From Flexibacter flexilis DSM 6793 (GTDB lineage: Bacteria > Bacteroidota > Bacteroidia > Cytophagales > Flexibacteraceae), in contig NZ_FOLE01000003.1 of NCBI RefSeq assembly GCF_900112255.1, positions 62,001 through 126,000 on the forward strand: a stretch of DNA of 64,000 nucleotides, written 5' to 3'. Both the position numbers and the translations under genes were made by a program. Shown piece by piece: positions 4,550 to 16,528 of this stretch (positions are counted from its first letter, which is position 1; each line of letters starts with the position of its first letter). The notes beneath the pieces are model-generated. The model was not told the origin of the DNA. It searched no databases and saw only the letters and a list, made by a program, of their open reading frames with translations.

Positions 4550-5527
4550 ATGAAGAAAATATCACTTATCATATTTTCTCTGTTGTCGGCTAACGTAGTT
4601 CACGCGCAATATACTGGCGGCAATAATGATGGGTTGGCTTATGCTATCCTTACGCAATCGGCGTGTGCGGTAGCAGACCCGACTTATGTTTATTTTGGGG
4701 GAAGTAATGACGGTTTTGCGAAAAATACGCTTACGCAATCGGCGTGTGCGGTAGCAGACCCGACTTACGTTTATTTTGGGGGAAGTAATGACGGTTTTGC
4801 GAAAAATACGCTTACGCAATCGGCGTGTGCCGTGCCAGACCCGACTTACGTTTATTTTGGGGGAAATAATGACGGTTTTGCGAAAAATACGCTTACGCAA
4901 TCGGCGTGTGCGGTAGCAGACCCGACTTACGTTTATTTTGGTGGAAGCAATGATGGCTTGGCGTATGGCACGCTGACCAATTGTTCTACTTTGCCTATTG
5001 AGTTGTTGCGCTGGGAAGCCAATTGCAAAGGCAACAAAATGGAGCTTTTGTGGGAAACGGCCTCCGAACTTAACAACGATTATTTTACTATCGAAAAAAG
5101 CAACGATGCGAAAACTTGGGCGGTGTTGGCTACCATACCCGCCGCAGGTAACAGCAGAGATTTGTTACGTTATACGTTTGCAGACCCCAACCCGTCTGAA
5201 AACACTACTTACTATCGCCTGAAACAAACAGATTTTGATGGCGCAAGTGTGTATTCGGCTACGGTGGCTGCTAATTGTAAAGATAACCGACAACTTAATT
5301 TAGCAACCGTTTACCCCAATCCAAGTACGGGAGTATTCATGCTAAAAGGTTTTGGTGTTCAGGCCAAAGTGTTAGTTTATAACGCGTTAGGTCAGTGTAT
5401 TTTGCAAAAAGTGATTACTAATGATTTGGCAGAAATTGATTTGAGTCAAGAACGAGCAGGTGTTTATCAGTTGCATATCGCCACGGAAAGCAATGTAACC
5501 ATCAACAAATTAGTAATCGAAAGGTAA
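4550..5527 (+). CDS. Repeat-containing secreted protein with type IX (type A) sorting domain
   Basis: Exported by Sec (signal peptide about 1-19, ending VHAQ) and then probably across the outer membrane by the type IX system. Residues 20-145 consist of a 27-residue repeat with the core SACAVADPTYVYFGG followed by a GG(S/N)NDG turn; each unit has one cysteine. Residues about 150-245 form an Ig-like or fibronectin-like part (LLRWEANCKGNKMELLWE). The C-terminus (about 255-325) is a type A sorting domain: YPNPSTGVFML, then VYNALGQ and LSQERAGVYQLHI. Similar GGxxDG repeats are seen next to sorting domains in many Bacteroidota proteins. A strong terminator follows at 5549. Confidence 0.88.
   Translation: MKKISLIIFSLLSANVVHAQYTGGNNDGLAYAILTQSACAVADPTYVYFGGSNDGFAKNTLTQSACAVADPTYVYFGGSNDGFAKNTLTQSACAVPDPTYVYFGGNNDGFAKNTLTQSACAVADPTYVYFGGSNDGLAYGTLTNCSTLPIELLRWEANCKGNKMELLWETASELNNDYFTIEKSNDAKTWAVLATIPAAGNSRDLLRYTFADPNPSENTTYYRLKQTDFDGASVYSATVAANCKDNRQLNLATVYPNPSTGVFMLKGFGVQAKVLVYNALGQCILQKVITNDLAEIDLSQERAGVYQLHIATESNVTINKLVIER
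4649..4972 (+). repeat. Four 81-bp in-frame tandem repeats
   Basis: Units begin at 4649, 4730, 4811 and 4892, each 81 bp (27 codons). The first three are nearly identical in nucleotides; unit 3 differs from its neighbours mainly where GCGGTAGCA became GCCGTGCCA (Ala-Val-Ala to Ala-Val-Pro) and in one Ser/Asn codon. The 4th unit diverges at its end. Low synonymous divergence points to recent amplification or ongoing homogenisation by slippage or recombination. Confidence 0.93.
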
Positions 5528-5548
5528 AAGTTGTATTTCTTATAGCCA

Positions 5549-5583
5549 AAAACCTCTACACGATGTATGTAGAGTTTTTTTTT
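5549..5583. terminator. Bidirectional rho-independent terminator
   Basis: CTCTACA (5554-5560) pairs with TGTAGAG (5568-5574), extended by AA/TT pairs, and is followed by nine T. It ends the 4550 gene and, read on the minus strand, can end the operon finishing at 5670. The same hairpin with the same loop occurs at 14669. Confidence 0.85.
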
Positions 5584-5603
5584 ATTACTAAAGCAATTAT
5601 CAC

Positions 5604-5655
5604 TTAATATACTTTTACGTGAAAGATGAAATATAGAATCTGGAGCAGTTGGGCG
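5604..5655 (-). pseudogene. Remnant of a trypsin-like protease gene 3' end
   Basis: Read on the minus strand this encodes AQLLQILYFIFHVKVY and a stop. The intact protease at 14723 ends AQLRKIQDFVFHVKVY. The last six codons and the stop are identical in nucleotides; the upstream codons are diverged. Nothing further of the protease is recognisable beyond 5655, where the downstream end of the 5670 gene begins 15 bases away. It is best read as a decayed duplicate of a gene end rather than a gene. Confidence 0.8.
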
Positions 5656-5669
5656 ATATCTTTTGTTTT

Positions 5670-6566
5670 CTATTTGGTTGATTGAGAGCTATTGGGCATA
5701 CCAAATGAAAGCGAAATATGCGCAAATAATTGTTTGCCGTCTATGCGTCGGATAGATTCGCTTTTTTGGCCGACAGGAAACGTAATAATTGTCCAAGCGT
5801 CAGGGTTTGGGTTTTGGTATAATTTGTAGGTTTGGCGCATATTTTTGCCAACGCCGCCACTGAGCAGCAGCCGTGCAGAGAGTTTATATTCCCATTTGGC
5901 GGAGGCTATCCATTGATTTTGTTGTAGAGAATAATTTTTGTTGGCGAGCCTGAAACTAGCCGCTTCGCCCGAAAGTTCTAGTCCTACCCTCCAGCGAGTA
6001 TTGATACGATACAACACTTTGGGTTTGATGGGGAACTGTCCCGTAATACTCCATCGGCTACCCATTGGCCGATAGTCTATTTCGATAAAAGGAACAATTT
6101 GGTGACCAAAGAACTGATGCCCATATCCAAGTCCCCAGCCTGTGGCAAAATGTGCGGAATGCTGAAATCGTAATCGAAACCCCGCCCCATACCGAAAATC
6201 GTCGGAACATATCGCACGGTTAGTTGGCAAGAAAAAACCAGCTTGCCCAAACACAACCAATGTTGTTCTGGCCGAAAGTGCCATTTGACCGAAAAGTGGC
6301 AGGCTTATTCCGTGCAGATTTTCTCCAAAAACAGAAGGCATCTTGTTTAATTTCAGATACTTATAACTAGCTCCAACAATCACGGCGTTTTTGTTCTTAT
6401 GCCACACAGGAAAGCGGATTTTTATATCTGTTTGGCGCGTGTTGGCGGTGGTATCATTGTATTTTAATGCAGAAAAACTATGTTGAATGCTCGCAAAATC
6501 ACGTTCTTGGGCACTGATATCAACGTATAATCCGACGAGCGAAAGACTTATGATTATTTTTTTCAT
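5670..6566 (-). CDS. Outer-membrane beta-barrel protein, DUF6268-like
   Basis: Predicted outer-membrane protein, last gene of the exporter operon. It has a signal peptide (about 1-19, ending DISAQ) and then alternating beta-strand patterns with many aromatic strand ends, for example RFPVWHKNKNAVIVGASYKYL and GWGLGYGHQFFGHQIVPFIEIDY, finishing with a strand-like C-terminus ISLSFGMP. This pattern resembles the DUF6268 family of Bacteroidota. Its start overlaps the stop of the upstream 6563 gene by four bases, so translation is probably coupled. Its role in the exporter is not known; a channel or surface component is possible. Confidence 0.65.
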   Translation of the reverse strand: MKKIIISLSLVGLYVDISAQERDFASIQHSFSALKYNDTTANTRQTDIKIRFPVWHKNKNAVIVGASYKYLKLNKMPSVFGENLHGISLPLFGQMALSARTTLVVFGQAGFFLPTNRAICSDDFRYGAGFRLRFQHSAHFATGWGLGYGHQFFGHQIVPFIEIDYRPMGSRWSITGQFPIKPKVLYRINTRWRVGLELSGEAASFRLANKNYSLQQNQWIASAKWEYKLSARLLLSGGVGKNMRQTYKLYQNPNPDAWTIITFPVGQKSESIRRIDGKQLFAHISLSFGMPNSSQSTK

Positions 6567-7816
6567 GGGCGTTTCTGAAAAATTGAAAAATTGAAAGCGA
6601 GCCCAACATTAATTGAGAAGCCAGTAAAAGCACGAACTGAACCCATCTCGGTGGGTAGAGGAGATAGGTAGTATTGGGTATTGCCGATTAGTCGGACTAG
6701 CGGACTGACTGCGTAGGCAGCAGTAATAGCACCCCCATAATAATATCCTCGTTGTTTTTTGGTGGTAATATTTTTGGTTTGGTTGCCTCCGCCCCCTAAT
6801 GTAATATCCGCTTGTCCGCCTCCTGCTACCGCATAAGTACGACCCGCCTCTATATCGGCATAAAGATTGAGCTCTTTTTGGGAGTAAACTACACCTCTTA
6901 GACCCAAGCCATAGCGCAACATTGCACCAGCATAGCCAGAGCCACTAATCGCCAACTTTCCTGTTGTACTATCTCGGCCTATTCGATTGATTTCTTTTTT
7001 CTTACCAGAATATATAAACCCAAAATGCGCCATTGCTCCAAGCCGAGAAGACATAAAATATCCCGTTTCTAATTGCCATAACATTCTGATTTTAGCGAAA
7101 TCAACCAGTGTTTCTTCGTCAAATTGACTACGAACTCCTTTGTTGATATGTTGATAACCTATCGTAAAATCTATAAATATTTGCCGCCGACACGGAAAAG
7201 AGTCAATTTCTCGGGTATGTAACTTTTCGTTCATCACTGATACCATGCTCGCTGCTTCGTATGCCCTGAGTGGGTTAATATAATTACGTGCTTGCCATGT
7301 GTGACGCGCAGAGATATAAGGCCGAATAAACGAATAATCACATTCTGTAATTTTATGGTCTGATTTATAGATACTTATATTTATAAACATATTCGCCACT
7401 CGCCCAATCGTATCACAGGCAATATCTTTGTCCGATTGCCATATTAAGCTGATATTATTTCTGTTAAAATTATCACGTTGATAATTGTAGTCGATGAAAT
7501 TAGACCAAAAACGCGTGAAATTCACATTATTGATAACCGTATCGCTGATATAATAAAAACACGTGTAATCTTTGATCCCTCGCACTTTTTGCAACCTTAG
7601 TGAGTCATTCAGATAAACATCATTCAGATTTGTTCCTTGCGCCGCTACTATAATAAAAACAGACATTCCATGAAATGTAAAACTGTTCGATATTCGATTA
7701 TTTTGCGCCAGAAATGAAATTTCTTTTCCATTATAGACAAATACCCTATTTACTTGCGCATTAGCGGTATTTAAAGAAATAATTATCAAGAAAATAAACA
7801 GATATTTAGTGCTCAT
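6563..7816 (-). CDS. Exported protein of unknown function, probable beta-barrel C-terminal half
   Basis: Signal peptide about 1-20 (LIIISLNTANAQ). Residues 21-200 have no motif I recognise. Residues about 210-417 show alternating strands typical of an outer-membrane barrel (IFIDFTIGYQHINKG, LGAMAHFGFIYSG, AFTGFSINVGLAFNF) and one glycine-rich loop (AVAGGGQADITLGGGGNQ). It lies two bases after the ABC ATPase gene and overlaps the 5670 gene, so it belongs to the same transcript as the exporter. The linkage suggests a dedicated outer-membrane or substrate-handling partner (inference). Family unknown. Confidence 0.62.
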   Translation of the reverse strand: MSTKYLFIFLIIISLNTANAQVNRVFVYNGKEISFLAQNNRISNSFTFHGMSVFIIVAAQGTNLNDVYLNDSLRLQKVRGIKDYTCFYYISDTVINNVNFTRFWSNFIDYNYQRDNFNRNNISLIWQSDKDIACDTIGRVANMFINISIYKSDHKITECDYSFIRPYISARHTWQARNYINPLRAYEAASMVSVMNEKLHTREIDSFPCRRQIFIDFTIGYQHINKGVRSQFDEETLVDFAKIRMLWQLETGYFMSSRLGAMAHFGFIYSGKKKEINRIGRDSTTGKLAISGSGYAGAMLRYGLGLRGVVYSQKELNLYADIEAGRTYAVAGGGQADITLGGGGNQTKNITTKKQRGYYYGGAITAAYAVSPLVRLIGNTQYYLSPLPTEMGSVRAFTGFSINVGLAFNFSIFQKRP

Positions 7817-7817
7817 T

Positions 7818-8498
7818 TTAGATTATTTTTCCGTCAGACATTTCTATAATTCTATCACTTTTATTGGCAAAATCATTATCGTGCGTTACGGTAATAATTG
7901 TTTTTTGAAATTCAGAGGAAAGTTGCTTGAAAATATCAAATACAATGGCTGTATTTTTGGTATCTAAATTCCCCGTTGGCTCATCGCCCATAATAATGGC
8001 TGGTTCATTAATTAATGCACGTGCAATGGCAACTCTTTGTTGTTGGCCACCCGAAATTCTTGAAGCGGATTTTAAAGCCTGCTCTTCCAAACCCAATATT
8101 TTTAATTTTTCATAGGCATTATATTCTATCTCTTCTCTTGTTTTTTTTTGTAAACGTAATGCTGGAATCATTACATTTTTTAGGCAAGTAAAATCGGGTA
8201 ATAAGTAATGAAATTGAAAAACAAAACCTAAATACTCGTTACGAAAAGCCGCTAATTTATTTTGACTATTCCCTGTTACTCGTTGTTCATTCAAATATAA
8301 AAACCCTTCATAATCAGTATCCATTGTAGAAAGTATATACAAAAGTGTTGATTTTCCACAACCAGACTTGCCAATAATCGAAGCAAACTCTCCTTTATTT
8401 ACCTGAAAAGAGACATCTTTTAATACTTGAAATTTTTCATTTTCTGTAGTAGAAAAATATTTGTTAATATTTTCTGCTTTTAGTGCAATACTGTTCAT
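7818..8498 (-). CDS. ABC transporter ATPase, MacB/LolD type
   Basis: Cytoplasmic ATPase powering the permease encoded just upstream. At 226 residues it has the length of LolD/FtsE-type ATPases. Walker A is GKSGCGKST (about 43-51), the Q-loop lies in GFVFQFHYLLP, the signature is ISGGQQQRVAIARAL, and Walker B with the D-loop is IIMGDEPTGNLD; the switch histidine is in TVTHD. Fifteen bases separate it from the permease stop. The family couples ATP hydrolysis to periplasmic movements in MacB exporters, lipoprotein release or antimicrobial-peptide efflux; with TolC and an HlyD adaptor in the operon, a MacAB-TolC-like exporter is most likely. Confidence 0.93.
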   Translation of the reverse strand: MNSIALKAENINKYFSTTENEKFQVLKDVSFQVNKGEFASIIGKSGCGKSTLLYILSTMDTDYEGFLYLNEQRVTGNSQNKLAAFRNEYLGFVFQFHYLLPDFTCLKNVMIPALRLQKKTREEIEYNAYEKLKILGLEEQALKSASRISGGQQQRVAIARALINEPAIIMGDEPTGNLDTKNTAIVFDIFKQLSSEFQKTIITVTHDNDFANKSDRIIEMSDGKII

Positions 8499-8512
8499 AA
8501 TTATGTATTTTA

Positions 8513-9757
8513 TTACCCTCTAATAATTTGAACTGGATCTATTTTTGAAGCACGAATAGCAGGAATATAACCCGCAAAAAAAGTAGTAAGTAAACCAAAA
8601 ATAATACCTTGTATGTAGTGTTTTATTAAAAAAGTAACGGGTAAGTATGTAATACTTCCTACTCCAATATATATTTTTGAAACCATAAAAGAAATAGTAT
8701 ATCCGAGTATTGCGCCCGAAAAAGAACCAATAAAACCAATCATAATGGCTTGTTTGATGAATATTTCTATTACATGATTACCCTGAAATCCTGTTGCTTT
8801 TAGAATGGCTATTTCTTTTATTTTTTCATAAATAACCATATTTAAAATATTATAAATTCCGAATCCTGCGACCAAAAGAATCGTAACAACAACGGCATTG
8901 GCAATAATATCCCGAATCATTTTTCCTGCTAATGATTGCTCGTTATTTTGCTGCCAAGTTTCTACATTATAGCCTGTATTTTGTTCAATTATTGAGGCAA
9001 TATAAGCCGTTTTTGTATGATTTTTGATATTAATAAAAATGTCGGTGATATAGGTGCGGTCGCGGCGCAGCAGTTGCTGAATCGTAGCGATATTGGTATA
9101 ACATTTGGCATTATCAACGGCCTTAATGGTTGTTTTGAAAATGCCTACAACTTCTAAGCGTTTGAATACGGAATTGCCAGCCGTTACGCCCAAATAATCA
9201 CCGACTTTTAGATTTAATTTTTCGGCCAAACCAATGCCAATAATCACGGCATTGGGATTGTTGGCCAAATCTTTGACTCTCCCTATTTGCATGGTAGAGC
9301 TAATGTCAAACATTTTGTCTTGCTCTAAGATATTGACACCTTGCAAATTCCCGTTTTCCGCCACATTTCCATGCGTATAAATAACATTGGCGAATACTTG
9401 CTTGCTGATGGCGATTACCTGCGGATTGGCTTTGAGATAAGATAGCAATTTGTCGGGATTTGTGATGCGATTATCAGAGTAAGCAAACTGCGGATTACTA
9501 ATAATATTGATGTGTTTTAGCCCCAAATACTGATTCATCATCTCATTGGTAACCAGTGAATTATCTTTGTGTATTCGCAAATGTGGTGTACTGTTCAACA
9601 TGATTTTTTCAGACCAGTTGTTAGTTCCCGTAATGAGCGAATTCATAAAAATATACATTCCAATCCCGAAGGTAACTCCCAAAGCCGCCACAATTGTCTG
9701 CTTGGGGCGTGCGATTAGATAAGTAAGCGCGATTTCTGTATTAATACTCCAGTTCAT
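8513..9757 (-). CDS. ABC transporter permease, MacB/FtsX/LolE type
   Basis: Inner-membrane permease with the MacB fold: one membrane segment near residues 20-45, a large periplasmic MacB_PCD-like domain (about 50-280, containing VIIGIGLAEKLNLKVGDYLGV), then three FtsX-family membrane segments (about 285-310, 340-370, 380-405) with the conserved EIAILKATGF loop. It ends with PAIRASKIDPVQIIRG, the standard tail of this family. Its ATG overlaps the adaptor stop in TAATG, indicating coupled translation. Partners are the ATPase at 7818, the adaptor at 9757 and TolC at 10862. Confidence 0.93.
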   Translation of the reverse strand: MNWSINTEIALTYLIARPKQTIVAALGVTFGIGMYIFMNSLITGTNNWSEKIMLNSTPHLRIHKDNSLVTNEMMNQYLGLKHINIISNPQFAYSDNRITNPDKLLSYLKANPQVIAISKQVFANVIYTHGNVAENGNLQGVNILEQDKMFDISSTMQIGRVKDLANNPNAVIIGIGLAEKLNLKVGDYLGVTAGNSVFKRLEVVGIFKTTIKAVDNAKCYTNIATIQQLLRRDRTYITDIFINIKNHTKTAYIASIIEQNTGYNVETWQQNNEQSLAGKMIRDIIANAVVVTILLVAGFGIYNILNMVIYEKIKEIAILKATGFQGNHVIEIFIKQAIMIGFIGSFSGAILGYTISFMVSKIYIGVGSITYLPVTFLIKHYIQGIIFGLLTTFFAGYIPAIRASKIDPVQIIRG

Positions 9758-10860
9758 TAGTAAATTTTGACTAATCTGTCCATAATATTAACTCCGCTCA
9801 ATACTTCTACCCATTCGGTCGAGACGATTCCCGTACGGATTTGGAGTGTGTCTTGTTCATTTCCATCCTTTGCAATTACTATTTTGCCGTTTGGTAGTAA
9901 GCAGGCTCTGGGAATGAGCAATGTAGAATCTTTCTCCGCAACGATAATGTTGGCTTGTAGCAGCGTGCCATTGATGAGTGTTTTGGGCAAAGAATCAAAG
10001 ATGGCCTCTACTTTATAGCTTTGCGTTGCTTGGTCAAAAAATGGATATATTTTAGAAATAGTGGCGGGATAAGCATTACCCTTTTCGGTATTTAATTCTA
10101 AAAGAACGATTTGTCTTTCTTGTATTTTTTTGATACTGGCTTCGTCCACATTCAATACAACCACAAACTCATCTACATTTCCTAAAATGGCCAATACTTC
10201 CCCTTTGCGAACAAACTCACCTTTTTCCTTTAATATACTATAAACCTTATAGTTACCTGTTGATTTTGTATAAAAATAATCAGACTTTGTGTCTGCAATT
10301 TGCTTTTGAGTTTGGCTATTTTGTAATGCTTGATTGAGCAATAGTTTTGTATTTTTTATATTGTTTTCAAGTTGTTGTAGGCTGCTAATGGCGTTATCGT
10401 AAGCAAGTTGCGCATTGTCCAAATCTAGTTTAGATACAGATTTTGTTACAAAAAGATTTTGAATTTTTTTGAGTTGTATCGAGTCCAACTCTTTTTTTTG
10501 TTGGGCAAAAGTTAATTGAGCTTTTAGTTGCAGTAGCGTTGCCGAGTTGCTTTGAGCTTGTGCGCGTGCTACGGTCAAATTATTTTGAGCAGTTTTTTGG
10601 TCGAGTGCAGCCAACGAATTGTCTTGCCAAAACAAAAGCTGACCAGTGTTTACTACTTGCCCCTCTTGCACTTCCGCGCCGAGCAAAATACCATCATTGA
10701 GTGCTGTTAATTGAAATTGGTTTTTGGCTTCCAAGTAGCCAGAAGCGAAAATCGCTTCTGTAATTGGTGCAAATGTCGGGGAAACAAGCTGTTGTTTTTT
10801 CTTGGAACAGGCCGTACTCAAGAGCAAAATAATGGGGAAGAACCAATATATAATTTTCAT
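9757..10860 (-). CDS. HlyD/MacA-type periplasmic adaptor lipoprotein
   Basis: Adaptor of a tripartite exporter, anchored to the inner membrane by lipid. The N-terminus is a lipoprotein signal ending LLSTAC. A lipoyl-like half motif (GYLEAKNQFQLTALNDGILL) is followed by a long coiled-coil hairpin (about 90-190) rich in Gln and Ala, the returning half (EKGEFVRKGEVLAILGN), and beta-barrel and membrane-proximal domains. I chose the ATG at 10860, in TAA-A-ATG directly after the TolC stop, over an in-frame TTG three codons earlier, because it places the basic residue before the hydrophobic core. It is cotranscribed with TolC and the permease. Confidence 0.9.
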   Translation of the reverse strand: MKIIYWFFPIILLLSTACSKKKQQLVSPTFAPITEAIFASGYLEAKNQFQLTALNDGILLGAEVQEGQVVNTGQLLFWQDNSLAALDQKTAQNNLTVARAQAQSNSATLLQLKAQLTFAQQKKELDSIQLKKIQNLFVTKSVSKLDLDNAQLAYDNAISSLQQLENNIKNTKLLLNQALQNSQTQKQIADTKSDYFYTKSTGNYKVYSILKEKGEFVRKGEVLAILGNVDEFVVVLNVDEASIKKIQERQIVLLELNTEKGNAYPATISKIYPFFDQATQSYKVEAIFDSLPKTLINGTLLQANIIVAEKDSTLLIPRACLLPNGKIVIAKDGNEQDTLQIRTGIVSTEWVEVLSGVNIMDRLVKIY

Positions 10861-10861
10861 T

Positions 10862-12208
10862 TTAGTCAAAATTTTGTTGTTGTATTTTTAAGTTAACTTC
10901 CTGTATAAGAAGGTTTTGTAGTGCTTCTATATAGTCGGCCTGATACAGAAGCAAATCATTGTAATATCGAAGACGCTCATCTAGCGCAATGATACCTTCC
11001 TGAAGTTTTTGCTGCGCGTGTGTATCATTTTTTTGCGCTAAAGCCATTATTTGCTGGCTACTTCTAAACGCCTGAATCGCACTACGATACGCAGCATAAT
11101 TACTTTTAAAATAAAGTTTTTGTTGTTTTTGGACGGCCTCATACATTTGCCATTTGCTTTGCTCCAACACTTTATTTTTTTGAATTTCATATCTGCGACT
11201 ATTGCCCTGAAAAACGGGAATAGACATTTTTATATTCCAGAATTGTTGTGGGATTTTGTTGGTATTACTAAACGCCAACAAATCATTTTCAACTATCTGA
11301 TTGGTATATTGATAATTGATAGATACTGTTGGATAAAATGCAGCCTTAGCACCTTGTAACTGTGTATGTTGCATCAAATATTGTTGCTCCGAAATTAGTT
11401 CTTCAGGCTGTGCTTTTGGGCTATATTGAGAAGTGCTATCAAGGCTGTAATGAAGAAATTGTAGCGGTATAATAATAGAATCTTCCGTATTGAGTAAGAC
11501 TTTCAAATTATGATAGTTTTCTATTTTTTGATATGATATTAAATTGAAACTATTTTCTATTTTTTGTTGCGTAATCAAAACATTATTAAGTGTAATTTCA
11601 CTTATAGTTCCTTGTGCATATTGGTTCTGGCTAATTTTGTATAACTCTTGATAGTTATACATATTTTGAATAAATATTTTACTCTTTTCTTCTAACATAA
11701 TAGCGGTAATATAACCAGAAGAAATTTGAGTATAAATATATTTTTTTTGTTGCTTTATATTCGTATTTCCAATATTTCTAGATATGGAAGCATATTTGAT
11801 ATTGTATAAATTATTAGCGTTAAATATCTCCCATTGTGCTGAAATATTTCCATTATAATTATACCTTTTACCAAATTTTACTTCTGTATAATTTTCAGGA
11901 TTAGCCGCCGAATTAAATAAAGTAGCAGGAACTAATGTAGGTTGAATAGTAATATTATCTGTCATACTACCACTCAGATAAATGCTAGGAAATAATTTAG
12001 AATATGCCTGTTTTTTTGTGTATTCAGCGGCATATTTTTCATTAAAAGCAGTTTTTATTTGTATGTTATTATCATTAGCATATTTCCACAAATCTTCTAC
12101 TGAAGATATGTTTTTTTGTGCCTTTGATGGTGATATAAGTACAAATATTGTTAATATACCACATATTGTAATATGCAAAGTACTGCGTATCATTAAAAAA
12201 CTAAACAT
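10862..12208 (-). CDS. TolC-family outer-membrane efflux protein
   Basis: Outer-membrane channel of the tripartite exporter. A signal peptide (about 1-31) is followed by two long helical stretches rich in Gln, Asn and Lys, the usual sign of the TolC tunnel, with strand segments such as SIYLSGSMTDNI and FYPTVSINYQYTNQ. Its 448 residues fit the family. The gene is very AT-rich, like the kinase/regulator pair upstream and unlike the protease region beyond 14.7 kb. A second ATG five codons in (MIRSTLH) is an equally plausible start. One base separates its stop from the adaptor start. Confidence 0.88.
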   Translation of the reverse strand: MFSFLMIRSTLHITICGILTIFVLISPSKAQKNISSVEDLWKYANDNNIQIKTAFNEKYAAEYTKKQAYSKLFPSIYLSGSMTDNITIQPTLVPATLFNSAANPENYTEVKFGKRYNYNGNISAQWEIFNANNLYNIKYASISRNIGNTNIKQQKKYIYTQISSGYITAIMLEEKSKIFIQNMYNYQELYKISQNQYAQGTISEITLNNVLITQQKIENSFNLISYQKIENYHNLKVLLNTEDSIIIPLQFLHYSLDSTSQYSPKAQPEELISEQQYLMQHTQLQGAKAAFYPTVSINYQYTNQIVENDLLAFSNTNKIPQQFWNIKMSIPVFQGNSRRYEIQKNKVLEQSKWQMYEAVQKQQKLYFKSNYAAYRSAIQAFRSSQQIMALAQKNDTHAQQKLQEGIIALDERLRYYNDLLLYQADYIEALQNLLIQEVNLKIQQQNFD

Positions 12209-12223
12209 ATATTTAATGTTATG

Positions 12224-12598
12224 TTATTGCACTTTGTGCCAAGTTTGAGACTTAGAGAAATAGTTGTTATTTGCAGTAATAACCAATATATTATCATTTA
12301 TTATTTTTGCGTAACAACTTACTTTTTTTTGTTTTTTGATAAGATATAATGTTCCATTATTATATTGGTTACCATCAAATACAAGGCCTGAAATTTGCTT
12401 TGCTCTAATTAGTTTTTTATCGGGAGCATCTACAATAAATGCGTCATAAGCAGTTTGATTTTTAGTAAATTCAATTATTCTTCCATCATCATTTTGCCAT
12501 TTGCCCAGTATCGTATCAGGGTTGGCCGTGGCAATGTGTGCATTGGCCGTAAACCAAAAGTTAACCATCAAAATGGTCATGTAAATTAATGTTTTCAT
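12224..12598 (-). CDS. DUF2147-like small exported protein
   Basis: Exported protein of 124 residues. Longer reading in this frame is possible but the ATG at 12598 begins a clear signal peptide (MKTLIYMTILMVNFW...ANA), so I use it. The mature part carries DUF2147 landmarks: GKWQNDDGRIIEF at the start, LVFDGNQYNNGTLYL in the middle and SKSQTWHKVQ at the end. The family is periplasmic and of unknown function. It is the first gene of the minus-strand run leading into TolC, 15 bases before that start, and is separated from the two-component genes by a strong terminator. Confidence 0.72.
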   Translation of the reverse strand: MKTLIYMTILMVNFWFTANAHIATANPDTILGKWQNDDGRIIEFTKNQTAYDAFIVDAPDKKLIRAKQISGLVFDGNQYNNGTLYLIKKQKKVSCYAKIINDNILVITANNNYFSKSQTWHKVQ

Positions 12599-12733
12599 TT
12601 TTTCTGAATTTGTTGAGTTAGTAATAATAATATGATACAAAGGTAGTTGTGTAAATATTTTAATTTTTAAAATGCTTACCGAAACGGGCATTATTGATAT
12701 TCAAACTGGCATTATAGTGCTTTAATGAAATAA

Positions 12734-12767
12734 AAAAAGCCATAACCTATTGAGATTATGGCTTTTT
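12734..12767 (-). terminator. Rho-independent terminator after the LytTR kinase/regulator pair
   Basis: AAAAAGCCATAA (12734-12745) pairs perfectly with TTATGGCTTTTT (12756-12767), a 12-bp stem with a 10-base loop and T-runs on both strands. Read on the minus strand it ends the transcript of 14556-12794. Confidence 0.88.
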
Positions 12768-12793
12768 GAATAAACAAATGAAATGTATATGCA

Positions 12794-13564
12794 CTATAAA
12801 GTATTGCCTTCTAACCATTCTAAAAACTCAGAAGATTTGGCCTTACTAATTACAACAGGTTCTGGTGTATTTACGATAAGTTTTATTACTAATTTCCGTG
12901 CAAAAAATCGCTCAATACTATTGATGTAATTCTTATTAATAATAAACTGTCTATTAGCCCGATAAAAAGTATCAGGCTCTAAAGATTTTTCTATCTCATC
13001 GAGTGTATTTGTTGTGAAAAATTTCTGATTAGTGTGCGTAACGATATGAATAATACTTCTATCCAAACAAAAAAAAGCTATTTCTTTGGTTGCTAATGGT
13101 ATAATTTTATCTTTTTGATTGATAAGAATTGTTTTTTTATAACTAGGCTTTATTTGATTTAATAAACCATATACTTTGGATTGGTACGTTTTTTTTTCAA
13201 AAGAAGATTGCAATTGCTTGAATTTATTGAGTGCTTTTAATAGCATATCCTCGCTCACTGGTTTTAATAAATAACTAATCGCATTTGTATCAAAAGCGTT
13301 CATCATATATTCATCAAAAGCCGTACAAAATACGATGGGACTATTGATAATTACTTTATCAAATATTTCGAATGATAGACCATCAGAGAGTTGAATATCC
13401 GAAAATATTAAATCGGGTGGCGGGTTATTGCCAAACCAATCTATTGCCGATTCTACCGAGTCAATTATTTTTAATATAATAATTTCGTCATCAATTTCTT
13501 GCAACATGTTTGCTACCTCACTTGCTGCATTTATTTCGTCTTCAATAATTAATATGTTTTTCAT
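12794..13564 (-). CDS. LytTR-family response regulator
   Basis: Receiver domain (1-120) with acidic residues Glu8/Asp9, phospho-acceptor Asp56 in LIFSDIQLSDG, Thr near FCTAF and Lys in YLLKPVSEDM. A LytTR domain follows at about 150-256 (IAFFCLDRSIIHIVTH, FYRANRQFIINKNYI). Its start overlaps the end of the kinase gene by four bases, so the two are cotranscribed and translationally coupled. Its likely targets are the adjacent DUF2147/TolC/ABC operon (inference from neighbourhood). The gene is AT-rich. Confidence 0.92.
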   Translation of the reverse strand: MKNILIIEDEINAASEVANMLQEIDDEIIILKIIDSVESAIDWFGNNPPPDLIFSDIQLSDGLSFEIFDKVIINSPIVFCTAFDEYMMNAFDTNAISYLLKPVSEDMLLKALNKFKQLQSSFEKKTYQSKVYGLLNQIKPSYKKTILINQKDKIIPLATKEIAFFCLDRSIIHIVTHTNQKFFTTNTLDEIEKSLEPDTFYRANRQFIINKNYINSIERFFARKLVIKLIVNTPEPVVISKAKSSEFLEWLEGNTL

Positions 13565-14556
13565 ATTATCGGTAATTTTACAATGAATTTATCTGATTTT
13601 TTAATGATTTCAATCTCTTTTTTGAAAAAGAATTGATAACGTTTCATTATATTGTCTAGCCCGATACCAGTGGAAGCATGAAGCGATTTTTTTGGTTGAA
13701 AATTATTTTCAATAACAAGGTATTTATTTTCTTCATTGAAAATATAAATGTGTAACTGCCTCTGGCTAGAGGCTATATTATGTTTTATGGAATTTTCTAC
13801 TAAAAGTTGCAGGCTGAACGGTAATATTTTGGTTTTTAATAAGTCTTTATCTATGGAAATATTAATTTGAATCGCGTCATGAAATCGCGCTTTGATGATA
13901 TAAAAATAAGAACGAATAAATTCAATTTCTTGCTCGATAGTTGCTACATCTTTTTCTTTATATTTAAGTACATACCGATACACATTGGATAGTTCTAATA
14001 CATAGTTTTTTACCTCTTTTTCTTTGGTCAGTATGCTTAATGTATTGAGTGTATTAAACAAAAAATGTGGGCTTAATTGCTCTTTTAGTGAAGAAATATT
14101 CGCTTCTAATTGAGCTTGCTTTAGTTCGGCTATTTCAAGTACATGACGCTGTTTTTCCTCCAAAATATATAAATAATAGAGAATAAAATAAGTAAATCCG
14201 CTAGATAAAAGACCTCTGAATAAGATAATTAGCTCTCTTTGCCACAAACTTATTTCACCTGATTGAATAACCACATTTACAAGGTCTTGCAACGCATAAT
14301 CGTATAAGAAAAATAATATAATTCCAACACCAACAGCCAGTATTCCTGTCAGAATATTGCTGTGTAGTCGGCGATGTAGCAAATATGTTTGTGCTAGCCA
14401 GCACGAAAAAGCCACAAGTAAATTAAACGTAACATGTTTGGCAATAAATTCGATATCAATCGACATCTTTCCTAAACGTATGATGTGTGGAAAGGCTGTG
14501 ATACAAGAAAGTCCAAATGAGATAAAGAAACCTAAAATGATATGCTGTTTTTTCAC
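13561..14556 (-). CDS. LytS/YehU-type sensor histidine kinase
   Basis: Membrane sensor kinase of the His_kinase (PF06580) class. Four hydrophobic segments lie in the first 130 residues (about 5-25, 40-60, 67-90, 107-130), followed by a coiled coil and the phospho-acceptor motif LSPHFLFNTLNTLS with His164. The ATPase part shows LQLLVENSIKHNI as the N-box and GIGLDNIMKRY as the G-box. The start is GTG at 14556; the residues that follow (KKQHIILGFF) lead straight into the first membrane segment. With little extracytoplasmic sequence, it may sense a membrane signal or the exporter substrate, as in BceS-like systems (inference). Confidence 0.9.
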   Translation of the reverse strand: MKKQHIILGFFISFGLSCITAFPHIIRLGKMSIDIEFIAKHVTFNLLVAFSCWLAQTYLLHRRLHSNILTGILAVGVGIILFFLYDYALQDLVNVVIQSGEISLWQRELIILFRGLLSSGFTYFILYYLYILEEKQRHVLEIAELKQAQLEANISSLKEQLSPHFLFNTLNTLSILTKEKEVKNYVLELSNVYRYVLKYKEKDVATIEQEIEFIRSYFYIIKARFHDAIQINISIDKDLLKTKILPFSLQLLVENSIKHNIASSQRQLHIYIFNEENKYLVIENNFQPKKSLHASTGIGLDNIMKRYQFFFKKEIEIIKKSDKFIVKLPII

Positions 14557-14664
14557 AGCACAAAAATAGCTATAAACAAAACCGCCTGCATCTTTTGACG
14601 ATACAAACGGGCAAAACGAATGCTAAAACAACCAAATTAATACTTGTGTTTGTTTCCATCAAAA

Positions 14665-14775
14665 GCAAAAAACCTCTACACGATGTATGTAGAGGTTTTT
14701 TTATTATCAAATCAATTATCACTTAATATACTTTTACGTGAAAGACAAAATCTTGGATCTTACGAAGTTGGGCGG
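14665..14775. repeat. Right copy of 111-bp direct repeat flanking the exporter block
   Basis: Contains the terminator and final 17 codons or so of the intact protease gene. It matches 5545-5655 in the same orientation. This copy is the functional original, because the protease reading frame is intact through it. Confidence 0.9.
14669..14702. terminator. Rho-independent terminator of the sigma/protease operon
   Basis: The hairpin CCTCTACA...TGTAGAGG (about 14673-14695) is flanked by A-runs and T-runs on both sides, so it can act in both directions. It ends the minus-strand protease gene. Its sequence and loop are the same as in the terminator at 5549. Confidence 0.85.
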
Positions 14776-15835
14776 TGCGGTCTAAATAACGCAATTTGTT
14801 ATTTTTAGCCAATACAATGCCATTTTTTTCGAGCGAGTCTTTCGGAATGGCTGCCAACATACGACGGATGTTTTCAGTTTTTTGAGCAAATGCCACGCCT
14901 TCCGCGTCGGTTTGTTTGCCCGAAATTACCCCGATTACATTTCCTTTTTTGTCGAATAACGGGCCGCCACTGTTACCAGGGTTTACGGGAACTGATACTT
15001 GATACGCATTTGTATCGCCTTCATAACCCGAATAAGCACTGATACTTCCTTCGCCGTACACCATTTCTTCGCGCGGATAGGCCAGCGTAAAAATGTCTTC
15101 GCCCAGTTCTGCGGACTTGCTGCCCAGCGTATAAGGCAACGTACCAAAGCCTTCAAACGAAGGGCTTATAATTTTCAGCAACGCCAAATCATGTTCTTTG
15201 TCGCCGTACACCATTTTGGCTTTAAAGCGTTTTTCTTGTTTGGCTTTTTGCTCAATAATGATGGAGTCGGCGCGGCTTACCAAATGGTAATTCGTTACTA
15301 CATAACCATCTGCACTAATGGCAAAACCCGTACCGCCGTATTTGAGCAAATTTTGGGTTGGTTTTGTGGCTGGCACATTGTTATTATTTTCCGAAACAAT
15401 ATCGTTGGCCAAAGCCTGTTGGCCTTGTTTGAGCCTGTCCACCTCGCGTTTGAGGTATTGGTAATGGCTCTGATGTTTGGTTTCTACCTTTTCGGTGTGC
15501 TGCATCGTGAAAATGGTACTAAATACCGTAATCAGCGCAACGGAAGCAGCTACGGCCATTGTCGGGTAATGTCTGTTTACCCAAGTTTGGAGTGAGTAGA
15601 TGCGGCGCAGACGTGGTACTTTGCCTTCGGCTTCCATTTCCGTATGAAATGTGTCGAGTTGCATTTTCAGTGCGCTGCGGCTTTTGAGCGTCCGAAAACC
15701 TTGCAAAAGTTTTTGGTGTTGAGCTACTCGCGCCGCAAAAAGAGGGTCGGTTTGAAGCTGTGCCTCAAACTGTTGCAAACTTTGCCCCTGCAAATTGCCT
15801 GCTAAGTAGTCTTCTATTTGTTCTATATCAACCAT
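14723..15835 (-). CDS. Membrane-anchored trypsin-like (S1C) protease with anti-sigma-like N-terminus
   Basis: 370-residue protein starting at the ATG at 15835 (MVDIEQIEDYL); the upstream in-frame residues look untranslated. Residues 1-90 form a helical cytoplasmic part beginning like anti-sigma factors (IEDYLAGNL...FEAQLQTDPLFAARV). One membrane segment lies at 93-111 and a short coiled coil at about 120-145. The extracytoplasmic S1 protease domain has its triad at His184 (VVTNYHLVS), Asp216 (EHDLALLKI) and Ser289 (NPGNSGGPLFD). There is no PDZ domain, unlike HtrA/DegS. The ECF sigma gene lies just upstream on the same strand, so a role in sigma control or envelope stress is likely. Its 3' end is duplicated at 5604. 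Confidence 0.87.
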   Translation of the reverse strand: MVDIEQIEDYLAGNLQGQSLQQFEAQLQTDPLFAARVAQHQKLLQGFRTLKSRSALKMQLDTFHTEMEAEGKVPRLRRIYSLQTWVNRHYPTMAVAASVALITVFSTIFTMQHTEKVETKHQSHYQYLKREVDRLKQGQQALANDIVSENNNNVPATKPTQNLLKYGGTGFAISADGYVVTNYHLVSRADSIIIEQKAKQEKRFKAKMVYGDKEHDLALLKIISPSFEGFGTLPYTLGSKSAELGEDIFTLAYPREEMVYGEGSISAYSGYEGDTNAYQVSVPVNPGNSGGPLFDKKGNVIGVISGKQTDAEGVAFAQKTENIRRMLAAIPKDSLEKNGIVLAKNNKLRYLDRTAQLRKIQDFVFHVKVY

Positions 15836-15952
15836 GTTACCAATCTGTTTTATATGAAGAAATAGCGGCAAACTATTTCCGTAATTTATAGACAAAACGG
15901 CCAAGCATTGGCCAAATTTTATTTCACAACAAAATTTATAAGTCTGTGTACC

Positions 15953-16528
15953 TTAGTCGTCTGAGGGCATCAGCGACTCGGCTATTTTGCGCAAGCGATT
16001 CAGGCACTTATATTTCTGATTCTTGGCATTTTCGGCATTGGTATAACCCATTTTTTGGGCTATCTGCTGCATATTTAGGCCATGAATGTAGAAATCTTCC
16101 AAAATCGTGCGACACGGCTCACCCAATTTTACCAGTGCCTTTTCCATTTGCCCGAACATTAGTTCTTGTTCGTCGGCGGTTTTGGTTTCGGCTTCGGGCA
16201 ATGCGATGTACGGCTCAAAATCCGTGAGGCGGCCTTCAAAGCGATTTTTGTAATACAAACGCTTGAGCCATAGCCTTCTGCACACCGAATACAAATACGT
16301 TTTTATCTGGCAATTGAGTTTGAAAGAACTATCGTTGAGGCTTTCGTATAGAATAATAAAGGCTTCCTGATAAATATCTTTCGCTTCCAGCTCTGTTCCG
16401 CTATTGCTCACCACGAAGTTGAGTATCATCGGATAATGCAACTTGTAAAGGCGGCTCATTACGGCACTGTCGTTGGTACGCAACCCAAAAAGAGCCTCTT
16501 CTTCTGAAAGTGTTTTTCCTTTGCTCAT
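15953..16528 (-). CDS. ECF-type RNA polymerase sigma factor
   Basis: 191-residue sigma-70 family protein. Region 2 spans about 20-90 (MSRLYKLHYPMILNFV, AKDIYQEAFIILYE, TYLYSVCRRLWLK), and region 4 about 125-185 (LGEPCRTILEDFYIHGLNMQQIAQKMGYTN in substance, a helix-turn-helix). No -35-specific extension or extra domain is visible. The membrane protease with an anti-sigma-like N-terminus follows 117 bases downstream on the same strand, the usual order for sigma and regulator. The promoter it recognises is not evident. Confidence 0.9.
   Translation of the reverse strand: MSKGKTLSEEEALFGLRTNDSAVMSRLYKLHYPMILNFVVSNSGTELEAKDIYQEAFIILYESLNDSSFKLNCQIKTYLYSVCRRLWLKRLYYKNRFEGRLTDFEPYIALPEAETKTADEQELMFGQMEKALVKLGEPCRTILEDFYIHGLNMQQIAQKMGYTNAENAKNQKYKCLNRLRKIAESLMPSDD

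Follow-up and report, generated by a model that had tools for sequence, protein, structure and literature searches.

The exporter block and its genes

In Flexibacter flexilis DSM 6793 a nine-gene exporter block lies between two direct repeats. The window, i.e. the whole stretch of 64,000 nucleotides that was analysed, belongs to a 330-kb contig, C3. The nine genes form one operon (Table 1). The initial annotation placed all genes between the repeats on the minus strand, and this holds for the nine recognised genes; a plus-strand open reading frame (ORF) of 102 amino acids within the TolC gene was taken as spurious. By its predicted proteins the block encodes an exporter of MacAB-TolC/LolCDE type under two-component control. 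The MacAB-TolC parts are all present: ATPase, MacB_PCD/FtsX permease, HlyD adaptor and TolC. Unlike those systems, it has separate ATPase and permease genes, a LytTR two-component system and a DUF6268 partner. A fused ATPase-permease MacB above the curated cut-off was not found (NF007826, cut-off 966 bits; permease 46.3, ATPase 191.1), and the exporter proteins scored under the NCBIfam cut-offs for LolD, LolC/E and MacB. The 417-amino-acid protein was found in 1 of 395 genomes of the phylum, its own. It has a weak match (25%) to L091:11934-13142, which itself carries a sub-threshold OMP_b-brl match. Scans with Pfam (8 of 9 proteins), PHROGs (6 of 9), PADLOC and NCBIfam (9 of 9 each) detected no integrase, relaxase or transfer gene in the block, which bears out the initial remark on the missing integrase.

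Table 1. Features of the exporter block and its neighbours (window positions).
Feature	Position	Strand
Left outer gene, secreted protein with type IX secretion system (T9SS) C-terminal sorting domain (PF18962); convergent with the protease in the putative empty site	4550..5527	+
Left direct repeat, putatively attL-like; weakened bidirectional terminator and decayed 51-bp protease gene end	5544..5655	.
DUF6268 protein, last operon gene, host-like G+C content (GC); outer-membrane beta-barrel is a guess	5670..6566	-
417-amino-acid protein without Pfam, PHROGs, PADLOC or NCBIfam family	6563..7816	-
ATP-binding cassette (ABC) ATPase, LolD/MacB type	7818..8498	-
FtsX/MacB_PCD permease, LolC/E-like	8513..9757	-
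HlyD-type periplasmic adaptor	9757..10869	-
TolC-type outer membrane efflux protein	10862..12208	-
Small protein, kept in the operon; probably exported (by eye); true start probably further in	12224..12691	-
LytTR response regulator	12794..13564	-
Sensor histidine kinase (PF06580)	13561..14556	-
Right direct repeat, putatively attR-like; intact protease 3' end and strong bidirectional terminator	14664..14774	.
Intact HtrA-like serine protease	14723..15904	-
Gene upstream of the protease, sigma-factor-like by eye	15953..16528	-

The direct repeats

The two repeats have the same orientation and align over 112 columns, 97 of which are identical (86.6%), with one single-base gap and exact runs of 27 and 33 columns. 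Our re-alignment agrees with the initial annotation in this, as it does in taking the right copy for the intact protease end with its terminator and the left copy for a remnant; both translations given there were right. The repeat consists of a bidirectional terminator and the final 51 bp, stop included, of the HtrA-like protease gene. A gene end is indeed duplicated, as had been proposed; terminator plus gene end is the better description. The right terminator is strong (-17.1 and -15.0 kcal/mol on its two strands), the stem of the left copy is weaker (-11.5 and -8.8 kcal/mol). The gene-end translations, read off by hand, are AQLLQILYFIFHVKVY versus AQLRKIQDFVFHVKVY, each followed by a stop, and 5 of 16 amino acids are changed in the left copy. 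Because the protease C-terminus is conserved in orthologues, which keep it intact (e.g. RTVQLKKIQDYVFQVKVY, then stop), the left copy is the decayed one. It starts 16 bp past the stop codon of the 4550 gene. Mismatches cluster in the inner part of the repeat, with 8 of its 28 columns affected versus 7 of 84 elsewhere (Fisher p = 0.011, the split into inner and remaining columns having been picked after inspection). This is expected if an element imitated the gene imperfectly and, equally, if a freely decaying remnant lay beside a selected terminator.

A search of the own genome (4.25 Mb) returned two copies of the repeat (second copy E 3.5e-31); the next match elsewhere was only about 20 bp. 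With two copies a dispersed repeat family is ruled out. The occurrence of the repeat at many unrelated gene ends, named initially as evidence that would speak against an insertion, was thus looked for and not seen. On the 330-kb contig the pair is the sole largely noncoding direct repeat found with a spacing of 5-15 kb.

A decayed gene end is also what would be left of a second protease gene that once stood beside the 4550 gene, all but its 3' end having later been replaced by the operon. We consider such a remnant of a tandem duplication quite improbable. The similarity ends after 51 coding bp and continues through the terminator; in each of the 10 relatives that match the protease strongly the gene is single, without a tandem copy; and the recurrence of duplicated terminators in this genome (pairs B to D, see below) would stay unexplained. 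The initial annotation had further offered recombination between repeated gene ends as the origin of the block, which is a possible alternative.

Composition and origin of the operon

Eight of the nine block genes have a GC of 0.29-0.39, 2-kb windows over the block reach a z of -3.8 against the contig mean of 0.425, and the block is a tetranucleotide outlier. The claim that much of the block is AT-rich therefore stands for these eight genes. It does not extend to the DUF6268 gene at the left end, which at 0.436 resembles its surroundings. Because this gene is part of the operon in relatives, we take it as cargo of differing composition. Outside the block, six AT-rich stretches of the contig gave a single 21-bp match and no terminator repeat at their flanks. 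AT-rich islands were seen, for instance, at G000:C3 251-254 kb and at 309-311 kb (z to -3.5 and -3.8), where neither a terminator repeat nor any other direct repeat bounds the island at E 0.05.

The operon order, minus the gene for the 417-amino-acid protein, was found in 8 other loci (L075, L082, L083, L084, L086, L088, L090 and L101), L075 being from G048, a genome of the same order. Across 23 named loci permease identity is 59-67% in 14, 51-52% in six, 40% in two and 28% in one. In the own family, represented by 10 other genomes, with the genus present through this genome alone, the best full-length match is 39% (G005, the only one to pass E 1e-85), next to a 178-residue fragment at 44%. 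Order-wide (291 genomes, own included; at most six candidates scored per genome) a match above 45% occurs in G048 only, in two copies (59 and 58%). In the permease tree, from which two own-family fragments of less than 300 amino acids were left out, the window sequence (end branch 0.5) falls into a 12-row clade with a Shimodaira-Hasegawa-like approximate likelihood ratio (SH-aLRT) support of 100 by a quick method, apart from all 13 own-family rows. The clade comprises eight Chitinophagaceae, one Flavobacteriaceae and three rows without group, the window included. Judged by these sequences, the exporter's nearest relatives are in Chitinophagaceae and Flavobacterium, and the block is acquired relative to close kin. 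A presence of the block at this site throughout the family, the other circumstance named initially as counter-evidence, is spoken against by the low family identities, if only indirectly.

An exchange of allelic cassettes between conserved neighbours by homologous recombination, of the minimal-mobile-element type, would equally bring acquired cargo between two intact genes and need no integrase; the repeat would then be incidental. By itself, however, such an exchange yields no 87% direct repeat of the flank, and no other cassette is known at the site in a comparison set without close strains. We hold it to be highly improbable.

Some observations concern the operon copies and neighbouring genes as such. 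In L082:5835-6002 (+) and L090:6851-7060 (+), and more weakly in L086:6876-7037 and L084:2875-3045, a short peptide ORF sits between response regulator and small protein. It has a single hydrophobic stretch and a Cys/Tyr/Trp-rich tail (e.g. YYCYCCYGWYSCWYH) and could encode the exported substrate. The operon copy of the window yielded no ORF of this kind. The TolC gene of Flavobacterium notoginsengisoli (L086:7618-8905) is split across two frames, by a frameshift or a sequencing error. The permease of L097, a metagenome-assembled genome (MAG) labelled Fibrobacteres, is 51% identical and on a long branch, which could reflect transfer or a mis-binned contig. In the window, the 4550 gene contains several 81-bp tandem repeats (4610-5014; 27 amino acids each, GGSNDGFAKNTLTQSACAVADP-type units), and the gene upstream of the protease adjoins it in 10 of 11 relative loci examined.

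Duplicated terminators elsewhere in the genome

The exporter-block repeat is one of several near pairs of similar terminators. Terminator-like hairpins were listed in 1.53 Mb of the genome (553; 132 on C3, 282 on C1 and 139 on C2), and all pairs were compared. The comparison was devised after pairs A, the exporter-block repeat, and C had been seen on C3; C1 and C2 were then taken as the test. Pairs less than 1 kb apart, tandem or intragenic, were removed before counting (C1 267k, C2 178k, C2 371k, C3 270k). Two further pairs went uncounted because they are not hairpin pairs: C1 296k/309k (74%) and C2 165k/167k, which adjoins two neighbouring genes that resemble each other. Among pairs 1-15 kb apart, 4 of 2702 scored at least 46, all of them direct, three nearly identical and one weaker, versus 9 of 149741 pairs that were more than 15 kb apart or on different contigs. 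At a score of at least 60, three near pairs faced two distant ones, both inverted matches. Near pairs are well above the long-range rate. As for the test contigs, C2 gave pair B (strong) and pair D (score 47, weak), and C1 (800 kb) gave none of at least 46.

Pair B (C2 148944/157718, 41 bp, 98%) encloses AraC, two aldo-keto reductases, a LamG protein, a LytTR regulator and a kinase. Pair C (C3 52816/55883, 39 bp, 95%) encloses a metallo-beta-lactamase fold protein, a major facilitator superfamily (MFS) transporter and LysR, and a PNKP ligase domain protein lies within the weaker pair D (C2 198.9k/203.1k). All four pairs have convergent predicted genes on their outer sides. Hairpins B and C have two close copies each in the genome; C has weaker terminator look-alikes too, the best with 85% over 36 bp. 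Hairpins A, B and C are unrelated, so that integron cassettes, which would share one repeated attC family, were discarded. Because the GC of block C (0.438) does not differ from its flanks (0.461 and 0.392), its foreign origin is not established. Synteny gave no empty site for it: pdxJ is in 11 of 11 family genomes, and the second gene to the right (C3 56896) in none of the 10 others. As a separate observation, 21 bp of hairpin B recur exactly inside an aldo-keto reductase gene of block B (G000:C2:151877-151897), encoding part of EKAVLDAIQ.

A similar arrangement was seen around one related operon. In L091, a Chitinophaga MAG, similar terminators stand 13.1 kb apart on either side of the orthologous exporter operon; the right one closely follows a tRNA-Arg, and the left outer gene is not convergent. 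The pair is weak (score 50, gapped); of the 254 pairs with a spacing of 1-15 kb that 38 loci contain, no other reached 46 (L095, of the same species as L094, was excluded). In the controls for these loci 2 of 11039 pairs reached 46, both of them orthologous stretches in two near relatives. No integrase was found among the scanned non-core genes of the L091 block.

A prophage flanked by a duplicated terminator

In the control set a pair spaced 38.8 kb apart surfaced in G048 (C2 350959-389800). It is an 81-bp direct repeat (92.6%) with a terminator. Between its copies lies a 38.7-kb prophage that encodes a terminase, a portal protein and, at one end, a PF00589 integrase. GC of the prophage is 0.347 compared with 0.401 and 0.384 in the flanks. 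As at the exporter block, the repeat lies with its terminator between convergent genes; the prophage differs in having its own integrase, and its repeat is without a gene end by predicted ORFs. Because of this prophage it is clear that an integrase-bearing element can have the geometry of terminator duplication.

The same geometry might arise without any integrase. DNA could break, or a fork stall, at the terminator hairpin on which two genes converge; repair would draw in foreign DNA, and 40-110 bp would become duplicated on either side through overlapping ends or through copying from the sister. In that case the repeats would be a repair scar. This would agree with several features: no integrase among the genes scanned, which were those of blocks B and C and, of D, the ligase part; hairpins A to D that share no sequence and yet are all terminators with a direct duplication; and duplicated stretches in B and C that barely exceed the hairpin (41 and 39 bp). 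Against such a capture stands the G048 prophage, in which a recombinase suffices in at least one case. Also, we know of no repair-made duplications of this type as a recurrent outcome in bacteria. We regard it as a possible, though somewhat doubtful, explanation. Still less probable, in our opinion, is that insertions in these bacteria are generally directed to bidirectional terminators on which genes converge. Machinery recognising the shape of the hairpin, not its sequence, would there insert integrase-less cargo in trans and duplicate the terminator each time, and pairs of locally identical terminators would mark acquired blocks genome-wide.

Proposed insertion history

That the block was acquired at a terminator, with the terminator and a gene end duplicated, is well supported. 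Because the left copy includes the minus-strand protease tail, the simplest earlier state is one in which the 4550 gene and the protease faced each other, convergent, across a single terminator. Into this site the nine-gene operon would have been inserted after horizontal acquisition, the insert spanning about 5656-14663. A second copy of the terminator and of the final 51 bp of the protease gene would have arisen in this event, so that both neighbours stayed intact and the block had a terminator at each end. By analogy with the prophage, the repeats may be attL/attR-like sites of some age; the enzyme behind them would probably have been a tyrosine recombinase, with the dyad symmetry of the hairpin as its core site. 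Because no recombinase was found in it, the block would now be fixed or only mobilisable in trans. On balance we lean, with limited confidence, towards an old, integrase-less, att-flanked island at the terminator, of the kind of a cis-mobilizable element (CIME). The initial suggestion of an insertion with duplication of a gene end, or of an old immobilised island, is thereby supported in part, namely by geometry, foreign phylogeny, composition and the G048 prophage.

Several results weigh against an att-flanked island. The main point against a recombinase origin and att sites is the absent integrase in the exporter block and in blocks B and C. As the hairpins are all unrelated, one site-specific integrase does not explain them. 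The genome has eight PF00589 matches, seven over the cut-off; the sole one on the contig is sub-threshold and 250 kb away. An empty site or a circular form was not seen; the look for an empty site covered the 10 other family genomes, in which only the protease domain of the protease found a match. Exact copies of hairpins A or B or of the prophage hairpin were absent from viral contigs. None of 475 pairs 1-15 kb apart reached a score of 46 in 400 kb of G048, nor did any in the near list of a 400-kb sample of G001. Finally, the 2.5-kb flanks of 11 related operon copies contained no direct repeats better than E 0.002; the best one, in L086, is a 30-bp repeat (83%) without obvious hairpin. In that test the L084 flank was shortened and the start of L091 fell inside the left hairpin, which made its pair invisible. 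A mobile operon that always brings its repeats along is thus unsupported by these copies; the terminator scan later added L091.

Other routes were examined as well. Integration at a tRNA gene was rejected since the window contains no tRNA; the G048 operon copy has a tRNA-Leu nearby, whose 3' end is not repeated within the 19.5-kb locus. Integrases in 13 named operon-carrying genomes were not tied to the operon positions, L093 excepted. For L093, C1, the presumed operon contig, had no integrase match within 50 kb of the operon. A tblastn search with three integrases against the operon loci, a weak test, gave no match.

If duplicated local terminators mark insertions, integrase-less acquired blocks could be read, with their exact ends, from a single genome, and insertions between genes that spare both neighbours and their transcription ends would be explained. 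For the present locus, the repeats would bound the acquisition of a two-component-controlled exporter. Among the literature matches listed, no title or abstract reports that terminators are duplicated where insertions occur; such a report may nonetheless exist.

Comparison with known integrase-less islands

A CIME, as defined in PMC5704250, has lost its integration and transfer genes and has kept attL and attR. The exporter block resembles it. Direct repeats, putatively with att function, flank it, one of them holding an intact gene end; it contains cargo only, with no integration or transfer genes in the scans made; and it appears acquired relative to its close kin, among which the genus is this genome alone. 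It differs in that no parent element or related integrase is identified, and in its target, a protein gene end plus terminator. In Dehalococcoides, 15 ssrA islands without integration modules are called possible CIMEs in PMC3146451. As in our block, the cargo is bounded by the 3' end of a gene on one side and a direct repeat of that end on the other, and the bases beside the repeat, on the upstream side, align poorly with the gene. According to that account the Dehalococcoides repeat is 20 bp of a transfer-messenger RNA (tmRNA) gene, and sister islands carry a putative serine recombinase, whereas the exporter block has a 112-bp repeat and no known recombinase. By analogy with these descriptions, the block fits the class of elements in which the att sites have outlasted the integration genes (PMC5704250, PMC3146451).

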